Of a DNA stretch of 6,238 bases, positions 2,687-5,566 are shown in pieces. Made by a program: the position numbers and the translations under genes. Source of the stretch: Candidatus Eiseniibacteriota bacterium (GTDB lineage: Bacteria > JAFGKV01). The stretch is from the NCBI GenBank assembly GCA_025453925.1, contig JALOPK010000199.1:1-6238 (forward strand). Reading direction: 5' to 3'. The notes below the pieces were generated by a model. That model did no database searches and had not been told where the DNA came from. It saw only the letters and a program-made list of their open reading frames with translations. The stretch's first letter is position 1; every line of letters begins with the position of its first letter.

Positions 2687-3514
2687 CTACGAGCGCCCGG
2701 GAACAAGCACGAGGGCGTAGTAGACACCCGGAATGTTCAGCAGGAGGCTGTCAAAGCGATCGAGGACACCGCCGTGCCCCGGGATGAGACACGAGCTGTC
2801 CTTCACGCAGACCTCCCGTTTGAACAGGGACTCCGCGAGATCGGCAACTTGCCCCAAGGACCCCGCGATGCCGCCCAGCAGGAGGCCGACGGGAAGAGGG
2901 AGTGGTCCAAGCACACACAGGGCGCCACCGGCCGCGAGCCCGGCGGCAAAGCCCGCCACGGCTCCTTCCCAGCTCTTCTTGGGGCTGATGACCGGCGCGA
3001 GGCGCGTGCGGCCGAACGCGCGGCCGAAGCCATAGGCCGCCGTGTCGACGATCCACGTCAGGTAGAAGGGGATAAGTGCCAGCTTCCAGGGGGGAATCCC
3101 CCAGCGATCCAGCTTGGGCCCCGGAAGGCGGAGTAGGTGCACATGGCCGAATAACCAGGCAATGTACAGCACGGCGGCCGCCGCCCGGGACGCACGGAGG
3201 AGCGTCTGCCGGGGAGTGCCGGAGGCGACGTCGAGCCCGAGGACGATCAGAAAGGGGAGAATCGCCAGCGACGAGGCCGGGCCCGGATGCCCGGTGGCCA
3301 TGAGGTAGAGGGTGCCTCCGCACACCGCCATCGTCAGTGGCACCTCCGGATCCAGATGCGGTCGGCCAAGACGGCAGAATTCCCAGACCGCACCCAGGAC
3401 GATCGCAAGATTGACCACGAAAAGGCCGATCCCGCCATGGATCGTAATGAACACGTAGAGCGGAATAAACGCCGCCGCGACGAGAGTTCGCAGCAGAAGA
3501 TTCGAGCCTCTCAC
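2687..3514 (-). CDS. cdsA: Phosphatidate cytidylyltransferase (CDP-diacylglycerol synthase)
   Basis: CdsA is a polytopic inner-membrane enzyme that converts phosphatidic acid and CTP to CDP-diacylglycerol, the branch point for all major phospholipids. The 275-residue product is strongly hydrophobic, with several membrane segments (for example about 8-25, 28-46, 82-95, 110-125, 144-160, 185-203 and 207-222). The C-terminal family signature is complete: Ser229, Lys232-Arg233, Lys238-Asp239, then PGHGG (245-249) and DRFD (252-255). The upstream conserved ISPKKSWEG (176-184) and WIVDTAAY (154-161) are also present. The start is GTG at 3514 and overlaps the uppS stop as GTGA (3511-3514). AAGGTGG ends 7 nt upstream, so coupling with uppS is likely. 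The stop TAG is followed by the only sizeable gap of the window. Confidence 0.96.
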   Translation of the reverse strand: MRGSNLLLRTLVAAAFIPLYVFITIHGGIGLFVVNLAIVLGAVWEFCRLGRPHLDPEVPLTMAVCGGTLYLMATGHPGPASSLAILPFLIVLGLDVASGTPRQTLLRASRAAAAVLYIAWLFGHVHLLRLPGPKLDRWGIPPWKLALIPFYLTWIVDTAAYGFGRAFGRTRLAPVISPKKSWEGAVAGFAAGLAAGGALCVLGPLPLPVGLLLGGIAGSLGQVADLAESLFKREVCVKDSSCLIPGHGGVLDRFDSLLLNIPGVYYALVLVPGRS

Positions 3515-4260
3515 GGGGCTTCCACCTTACCGAACCGCCGCTCACGCCCCGCATAGTCCTCCAAGGCACGAAGGAGCTCGGCCCTTCGGAAGTCCGGCCA
3601 ATAGGTGGGGGTTACCCAGAGTTCCGTGTAGGCGATCTGCCACAGCAGGAAATTGGAGATGCGCATCTCGCCGCTCGTTCGGATGAGCAGGTCGGGATCA
3701 GGGGTTCCGGAGGTCTGGAGCCTCGCGGCGACCATGTTTTCGTCGATGTCATCCGGGCAAACGACACCCGCAGCCGCTTCGCGCGCGAGCGCACGGACCG
3801 CCTCAACGATCTCCGCGCGGCTGCCGTAGCTCAGTGCCAGCGTCAGCGTGAGCCCCGTGTTCCCCGCGGTGCTCTGCATCGCAGCGGCCAGGTCTCTGCG
3901 CACCGGCTCCGGCATCTGTTCGGAGGAGCCGATGGTAAGCAGGCGGACATTGTTCTTCTGCAGGACATCCAGCTCGTGTCGCAAGTATCGCTGGAGGAGC
4001 CCCATGAGGAAGTCGACTTCGGCCCTGGGCCGGGCCCAGTTCTCTGTGGAAAACGAGTAGAGCGTGACGTATGGGATGTCCCATTCGGCACATGCGGTCA
4101 CGATGTCTCGCAGCGCTTCGACGCCGGCCTGGTGGCCCCGGATTCGTGGCAGGCCCCGGGCGCGTGCCCACCGCCCGTTGCCATCCATGATGATGGCGAT
4201 GTGGGTCGGGAGTCGGCCCAGGCGGCGGGGGTCCGTATCCGGGCCGCGTTCCGTGTCCAG
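3511..4260 (-). CDS. uppS: Undecaprenyl diphosphate synthase, probable CTG start
   Basis: This cis-prenyltransferase adds isopentenyl units to farnesyl diphosphate to make C55 undecaprenyl diphosphate, the precursor of the lipid carrier for peptidoglycan and other glycans. With the start proposed here it has 249 residues. It shows HIAIIMDGNGRWA (20-32) with catalytic Asp26, His43 in GHQAG, YSFSTENW (68-75) with Glu73, Asn74 and Trp75, NTGLTL (134-139), and the signature DLLIRTSGEMRISNF (190-204) with Arg194, Glu198, Arg200 and Ser202, then Glu213. These numbers coincide with E. coli UppS. The first ATG in frame is 4188, the Met of MDGNG, and starting there would remove the first beta strand. 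No ATG, GTG or TTG exists upstream before an in-frame TGA at 4306-4308. CTG at 4260 has GGAGG 7 nt upstream. CTG at 4266, overlapping the frr stop, is a second option. Function is certain; the start is inferred. Confidence 0.95.
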   Translation of the reverse strand: MDTERGPDTDPRRLGRLPTHIAIIMDGNGRWARARGLPRIRGHQAGVEALRDIVTACAEWDIPYVTLYSFSTENWARPRAEVDFLMGLLQRYLRHELDVLQKNNVRLLTIGSSEQMPEPVRRDLAAAMQSTAGNTGLTLTLALSYGSRAEIVEAVRALAREAAAGVVCPDDIDENMVAARLQTSGTPDPDLLIRTSGEMRISNFLLWQIAYTELWVTPTYWPDFRRAELLRALEDYAGRERRFGKVEAP

Positions 4261-4262
4261 GC

Positions 4263-4820
4263 TCAGACCTCCATCACTTCCCGTTCTTTGGCCTTGAGCA
4301 GGTCGTCAACCACGGAGATATGCCGGTCGGTGATCTCCTGAATCTTGTCGGTACCCTTGTGGAGCTCGTCTTCGGTGATGTCTCCCGCCTTCTCGAGCTT
4401 CCGCATTTCCTCGATCTCGCTTCGGCGGATGTTTCTGACGGACACCCGGGCATCCTCTGACAGCTTACGAACCAGTTTCACCAGGTCCTTTCGTCGCTCT
4501 TCGGTGAGCGTCGGAATCGGCAGCCTGATTACGGCGCCGTCATTCAGCGGATGGAGCCCAAGTTCCGACTTACTGATGGCCTTCTCGATGGCGGGCAGCG
4601 CCGTTCGATCCCAGGGCTGCACCACAAGCAGTCTCGGCTCCGGCGCGCTGATGTTCGCCACCTGGCGGAGAGGCATCTGCGAGCCGTAGTACTCAATCCG
4701 TATGCCGTCCAGCAGGGCGGGCGAGGCCTTTCCCGTGCGGACGCGGGAAAACTCGCGCTTCAGTGATTCGCAGGCCTGCTGCATCTTCTCTTCTGTCTCT
4801 TCCAGAACCAGTTCCGTCAT
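4263..4820 (-). CDS. frr: Ribosome recycling factor
   Basis: RRF works with EF-G to split the post-termination ribosome and release mRNA and tRNA. The product has 185 residues, the same as E. coli RRF. Domain I is a three-helix bundle made of the N-terminal helix (about 1-30, ending in FSRVRTGKASPALLD) and the two C-terminal helices (about 105-185). Domain II lies between them (IRIEYYGSQMPLRQVANIS, 40-58, through NDGAVIRLPIPTLTEERR, 93-110). The functionally important arginine of the family is seen at Arg132 in VSVRNIRRSEIEEMRKLEK. The ATG at 4820 is chosen because homology and length fit exactly and AAGGAG lies 10 nt upstream; an in-frame extension back to 4967 runs through pyrH and has no family support. 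It overlaps pyrH by 4 bp. Its last codons carry the ribosome binding site of uppS. Confidence 0.97.
   Translation of the reverse strand: MTELVLEETEEKMQQACESLKREFSRVRTGKASPALLDGIRIEYYGSQMPLRQVANISAPEPRLLVVQPWDRTALPAIEKAISKSELGLHPLNDGAVIRLPIPTLTEERRKDLVKLVRKLSEDARVSVRNIRRSEIEEMRKLEKAGDITEDELHKGTDKIQEITDRHISVVDDLLKAKEREVMEV
4267..4272 (-). promoter_or_regulatory. Ribosome binding site that decides the uppS start
   Basis: GGAGGT lies on the minus strand inside the last codons of frr. GGAGG ends 7 nt before CTG at 4260, the same spacing as between AGGAGG and ATG in tsf. It directly abuts the other candidate, CTG at 4266, which is too close for efficient initiation. It is about 80 nt from the ATG at 4188, so it cannot serve that codon directly. 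The site is seen in the sequence; its use with CTG is inferred. Confidence 0.65.
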
Positions 4821-5566
4821 GGCCGCATCACTCCTTCCGATCCTTCCGAGGAAACGGTTTCGACAGGGCCTACCAGCGTACCCTCGGGGTCGCCCATGAG
4901 GACCCGCTTCATCGCTCCCCGGCGTGTCTGGTTGAACACCACCACCGGCAGATGGTTGTCCCTGCACAGTGCGATGGCGGCACGATCCATGAACAGCAGG
5001 TTGGCGGCAAGCACATCATCGTAGGAGATTCGCTCATAGCGCCGGGGACCCGCGACTCTCTCGGGATCGGCCGAAAACACGCCGTCGACCCGGGTTCCCT
5101 TGAGGAGCACCTCTGCGCCGATCTCCAGTGCCCGGAGAGCGGCGGCGGTGTCGGTGGTGAAGAACGGGTTCCCCGTCCCCCCGGCAAAGATCCCGATGTG
5201 CCCGTCCGACACCAGTGCCCGTGCTTCCTCGGCGGAGAACTGCTCGACGAACCCCTTGATGGGGAACGCAGCGCGAACGAATGCGGGCACGCCCTGTGAG
5301 CGGATCTGCTCTGCAACCGCCAGCGCATTGATCACGGTGGCAAGCATGCCCATGCAGTCGGCGGTGACACGATTCAACAGAAGCGTGGACGTGGCGCCGC
5401 GGAGCATATTCCCGCCACCGGGCACGACGCCGATGCAGACGCCCAGAGATCGGGCCTCGATCAGGTCATCCGCCCGGAGCCTCAGGGCCTCCGCATCGAG
5501 ACCCGCCCCTTCCTCGCCGCCCAGGGATTCGCCGCTCAGCTTGAGCAGCACGCGGCGATACCGCAT
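4817..5566 (-). CDS. pyrH: UMP kinase (uridylate kinase)
   Basis: PyrH phosphorylates UMP to UDP with ATP in pyrimidine nucleotide synthesis. The bacterial enzyme is a hexamer of the amino-acid-kinase fold and is usually regulated by GTP and UTP. The 249-residue product shows the N-terminal phosphate-binding LLKLSGES (7-14, Lys9), the GGGN loop (50-53) followed by LRG (55-57), the NRVTADCMGMLATVINALA stretch (65-83, Asp70), and the near-invariant GGTGNPFFTTD (129-139) that binds UMP phosphate. LLKGTRVDGVFSADP (154-168) and MDRAAIALCRDNHLPVVVFN (193-212) match the ATP-binding half. Length fits the family (about 240). A GGAGAGG at 5583-5577, inside the end of tsf, lies 10 nt before the ATG. The stop overlaps the frr start by 4 bp (ATGA). 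The last 12 or so residues, after LVGP, are a non-conserved tail in which the frr ribosome binding site is embedded. Confidence 0.97.
   Translation of the reverse strand: MRYRRVLLKLSGESLGGEEGAGLDAEALRLRADDLIEARSLGVCIGVVPGGGNMLRGATSTLLLNRVTADCMGMLATVINALAVAEQIRSQGVPAFVRAAFPIKGFVEQFSAEEARALVSDGHIGIFAGGTGNPFFTTDTAAALRALEIGAEVLLKGTRVDGVFSADPERVAGPRRYERISYDDVLAANLLFMDRAAIALCRDNHLPVVVFNQTRRGAMKRVLMGDPEGTLVGPVETVSSEGSEGVMRP

Follow-up and report, generated by a model that had tools for sequence, protein, structure and literature searches.

A probable CTG start codon for uppS directly behind frr in an uncultured bacterial phylum

A count quoted in PMC11983097 lists 20 CTG starts among nearly 85,000 annotated bacterial genes (0.024%), and even wild-type tRNAfMet does not use CUG efficiently (PMC11497404). 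The closest proven case to the gene described here is rep of the FIB plasmids, in which expression from a CTG with a good ribosome-binding site is low yet enough, and the change of CTG to CTC abolished function (PMC11983097). For the coupling of neighbouring genes, work in E. coli found that it is unchanged upon depletion of the ribosome recycling factor, RRF (PMC7538156). A study of reinitiation at non-canonical codons (PMC4648390) concerns eukaryotic expression and was set aside. The uppS gene studied here lies directly behind frr and, judging from the sequence, is probably translated from a non-canonical CTG start at 4260-4258.

The window, i.e. the whole stretch of 6,238 nucleotides that was analysed, is a complete contig (G000:C216) of a fragmented genome assembly of 3.9 Mb in 502 contigs, which is 82% complete. 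For the comparison within its own phylum we used two further genomes, G001 from the same genus and G002 from the same family, the latter as outgroup. We take the gene order on the minus strand to be tsf-pyrH-frr-uppS-cdsA-dxr-rseP; the names were assigned by reading and family knowledge, and those of uppS and frr were tested. Table 1 gives the coordinates of the features. The pyrH/frr junction is an ATGA overlap (4820-4817). We found no 16S rRNA gene in G000, G001 or G002 and therefore assumed the standard anti-Shine-Dalgarno (anti-SD) sequence CCUCC.

Table 1. Features at the frr-uppS junction and around uppS, in positions of the window.
Feature	Position	Strand	Basis or remark
uppS (isoprenyl transferase / undecaprenyl diphosphate synthase)	3511..4260	-	proposed CDS, 249 codons + stop from CTG 4260
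CTG, proposed start codon	4258..4260	-	in frame; GGAGGT core, 7-nt spacing; no canonical start upstream of core
GGAGGT, Shine-Dalgarno-like, within last frr codons	4267..4272	-	also in both relatives
CTG overlapping frr stop (CTGA), less likely start	4264..4266	-	spacing of 1 nt to GGAGG
CTG, alternative internal non-canonical start (codon 14)	4219..4221	-	in frame; without SD
ATG, first canonical codon in frame (Met25 of IIMDGNG)	4186..4188	-	rejected as start; without SD
frr (ribosome recycling factor)	4263..4820	-	ORF + homologues in both relatives, 85% and 69% identity
frr stop TGA	4265-4263	-	sequence
GTGA overlap, uppS stop/cdsA start	3511..3514	-	sequence

The identity of uppS is clear. 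Its product scored 335 bits against the NCBIfam equivalog PRK14830 (cut-off 304), 280 bits against TIGR00055 uppS (cut-off 109.55) and 286 bits against PF01255. With PF01255 and TIGR00055 it thus lies above the curated cut-off for the UppS/cis-prenyltransferase family, and it carries D26, H43, R194 and E213; these residues and E73 are invariant across the three relatives. Counting CTG 4260 as codon 1, PDB chain 1jp3 (E. coli UppS) aligns from 19-247 to 19-247, in agreement with the preliminary description, which had proposed that this start gives the same numbering as E. coli UppS. It is the sole copy found in the genome (82% complete), and a second copy may lie in the missing part. As one uppS per genome was found in all three genomes of the phylum, the copy described here presumably must work.

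On the minus strand the uppS frame stays open between 4305 and 3511, with its stop at 3513-3511, and an in-frame TGA at 4308-4306 precedes it. The first ATG, GTG or TTG of this frame is ATG 4188, which encodes Met25 within the core IIMDGNGRW. The preliminary description was thus correct in stating that no canonical codon lies between the TGA and 4188. From 4271 to 4189 ATG, GTG and TTG are absent from all three forward frames, and hence a single-base indel is unable to attach a canonical start, a rescue that had been named as a possible refutation and can now be regarded as nearly excluded. The nearest canonical codons upstream, GTG 4277 and ATG 4274, belong to the reading frame of frr, which closes at the frr stop. 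The residues LPTHIAII just before Met25 are part of the family profile and occur in UppS chains of solved structure. We also compared the coding sequence with that of G001. Across codons 8-24 we counted 3, 2 and 12 changes at positions 1, 2 and 3, respectively (12 of 17 at the third position), which resembles the gene body. Translation must therefore begin before 4188, as had been proposed, since the stretch upstream is family sequence with mostly third-position changes, and no canonical start is compatible with the conserved N-terminus. For codons 1-7 the counts were 1, 2 and 1, without a signal of coding constraint. This position-wise pattern supports coding constraint beginning at ~4239; the first seven codons receive no such support, so that the true start could lie deeper in the gene.

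The spacing from the SD sequence points to CTG 4260 as the best candidate, the same codon that had been put forward before. GGAGG at 4272-4268 lies 7 nt before CTG 4260, which itself stands two bases past the frr stop, and only 1 nt before CTG 4266. The anti-SD duplex upstream of CTG 4260 reaches -10.5 kcal/mol with the standard CCUCC assumed. For ACG 4254, ACG 4236, CTG 4221 and the ATC codons we found no SD core at usable spacing. In this genome an SD core of at least 5 nt at usable spacing precedes 2.6% of the internal CTG codons compared to 35% of the predicted gene starts, and the SD likelihood ratio for CTG 4260 is near 13, without a correction for the small number of codons open to choice. 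The SD sequence supports CTG 4260, not decisively, because several codons could have been tried and because GGAGGT also encodes the C-terminus of RRF (...MEV). The RNA structure at the uppS start was ordinary (z -0.12).

In G002 uppS starts with a GTG one codon before the position of CTG 4260, behind the same GGAGGT and overlapping the TAG of frr. In G001 a CTT takes the place of CTG 4260 in the alignment and is followed at once by an identical GACACGGAAC; an ATG comes six codons later. The bases 4264..4266 are identical in G001 and end frr there, so the C of both candidate CTGs (4266 and 4260) is common to the two genomes. The comparison thus bears on the proposed start in two ways: the C at 4260 is shared with G001, and the CTG codon itself is not conserved, being CTT in one relative and GTG in the other. 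Conservation of the start in close relatives would support a CUG start and is not required for one; its lack in these two argues against a conserved or old control device. G001 furthermore carries a 179-bp insertion between frr and uppS (L112, G001:C146, ~7395-7573, minus strand), which is absent from G000 and G002. As the compact junction is common to G000 and the outgroup G002, the simplest assumption is that the insertion arose in the G001 lineage. We considered a repeat element as the origin of the insert and rejected it: it occurs as a single copy in G001 and is absent from the other two genomes. Behind the GGAGGT that ends frr in G001 there is no uppS start, a reminder that the same bases encode the RRF C-terminus. 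In four loci from other bacteria (L251, L259, L028 and L004) frr ends directly at uppS, and the closing frr codons (ATGGAGGTN or similar) might also serve as the SD sequence of uppS.

In order to evaluate how unusual the locus is, we surveyed other uppS loci and other genes of the same genome. All of the 127 other uppS loci whose core could be recognised have a canonical start upstream of it. In 121 contigs of the same genome, 0.88 Mb together, the scan took 497 genes that have an in-frame stop upstream and scored each for coding sequence that extends upstream beyond all its canonical starts. Clear cases were 3 of the 497, namely uppS, a TonB-type receptor with a frameshift and prfB; several of the lower-scoring rows read like antisense artefacts and only the clear cases were counted. 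The TonB-dependent receptor-like gene (L123, G000:C6) switches frame near 1100, by a frameshift or an assembly error. The prfB-like gene (L172, G000:C213) has a CTT TGA site near 5151, which we take to be the well-known programmed +1 frameshift and which serves as the positive control of the scan. The initiator tRNA is present and canonical, with the standard GGG-CCC stem. A lineage-wide use of CTG or altered start codons was rejected on these grounds, as two of the three clear cases are frameshifts. The scan of 0.88 Mb and the standard initiator tRNA thus indicate a one-off CTG start and not a changed code.

Several other readings of the junction have to be weighed against initiation at CTG 4260. 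The start might be another non-canonical codon in the frame, i.e. CTG 4266 by termination-reinitiation at CTGA, CTG 4221 or ACG 4236, which we consider unlikely. The CTGA at 4266 would fit the ATGA and GTGA overlaps at both adjoining junctions, as the preliminary description had pointed out together with the objection that the codon is too near the SD sequence; the spacing of 1 nt from GGAGG bears out that objection. An internal start would agree with a constraint that becomes visible only from codon 8, and with CTG 4221 as the start Met25 would be preceded by 11 residues, a spacing that also occurs among other UppS frames, yet 4254, 4236 and 4221 all come without an SD sequence at usable spacing. 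We give a smaller chance to a canonical start that is hidden by a base-call or assembly error or by sequence missing from the contig. The fragmentation and incompleteness of the assembly, one frameshifted gene in the sample and the longer junction in G001 all speak for such an error. However, the shared C at both CTGs makes it doubtful, no single indel joins a canonical start to the uppS frame, and the compact junction is as in G002, so that G001 seems to have gained the extra bases by insertion. In particular a GTG misread as CTG, formerly named as the main alternative, is disfavoured because G001 also has the C.

Translation from ATG 4188, by which UppS would be truncated or inactive, is very improbable. 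It has in its favour that the frame offers no other canonical codon ahead of the core, but such a start would drop the first conserved segment including LPTHIAII and ~20 bits compared to the top family models, it has no SD sequence, and not one of the 127 other loci is forced to begin there. Moreover, the sole uppS copy found would then be the truncated one. Hardly credible at all is an RRF-UppS fusion produced by a -1 shift where frr ends. The uppS frame is indeed open across the frr stop; against this, the sequence GAG GTC TGA contains no slippery heptamer and the relatives have separate genes, with the 179-bp gap in one and the GTG start in the other.

Returning to initiation at CTG 4260, we infer its use, its coupling to frr and any lowered yield as follows. 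Ribosomes at the end of frr, or 30S subunits that the GGAGGT in the last frr codons brings in, would initiate with fMet on the CUG, and the strong, well-spaced SD sequence together with the close coupling to frr would offset the weak first codon-anticodon pair. As this pair is weak on CUG (PMC11497404), the yield of UppS is probably low, and the coupling to frr may compensate for it. We give little credence to the further idea that the single-copy essential uppS is held low by an frr-coupled CUG start such that UppS output tracks RRF synthesis or ribosome recycling; the coupling that stays unchanged upon RRF depletion (PMC7538156) speaks against a simple RRF feedback on uppS. A regulatory meaning of the CTG start is possible, for instance the one put forward in the preliminary description, in which the weak start would hold UppS low relative to RRF.

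The CTG start of uppS is real and rare, probably genuine and of a known kind, unusual and with precedents. An annotation that tries only ATG, GTG and TTG would begin UppS only at Met25, at the cost of the leading part of the conserved core, which makes uppS a clean example of start calling for uncultured phyla. The gene resembles rep of the RepFIB plasmids of E. coli (PMC11983097) in its CTG start with a good ribosome-binding site, in the tendency of annotation towards a downstream canonical codon and in the low expression proposed. The two differ in that rep is a plasmid replication gene with an experimentally proven start, whereas uppS is a single-copy chromosomal housekeeping gene known from sequence. 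In comparison with the frr-uppS junctions of other bacteria, uppS likewise follows close behind frr and the end of frr (ATGGAGGTN) supplies an SD-like GGAGG, as in G002, whereas at every locus examined there an ATG, GTG or TTG is available. E. coli UppS (chain 1jp3) shares the residue numbering obtained with CTG 4260 as codon 1 and differs in its start codon.
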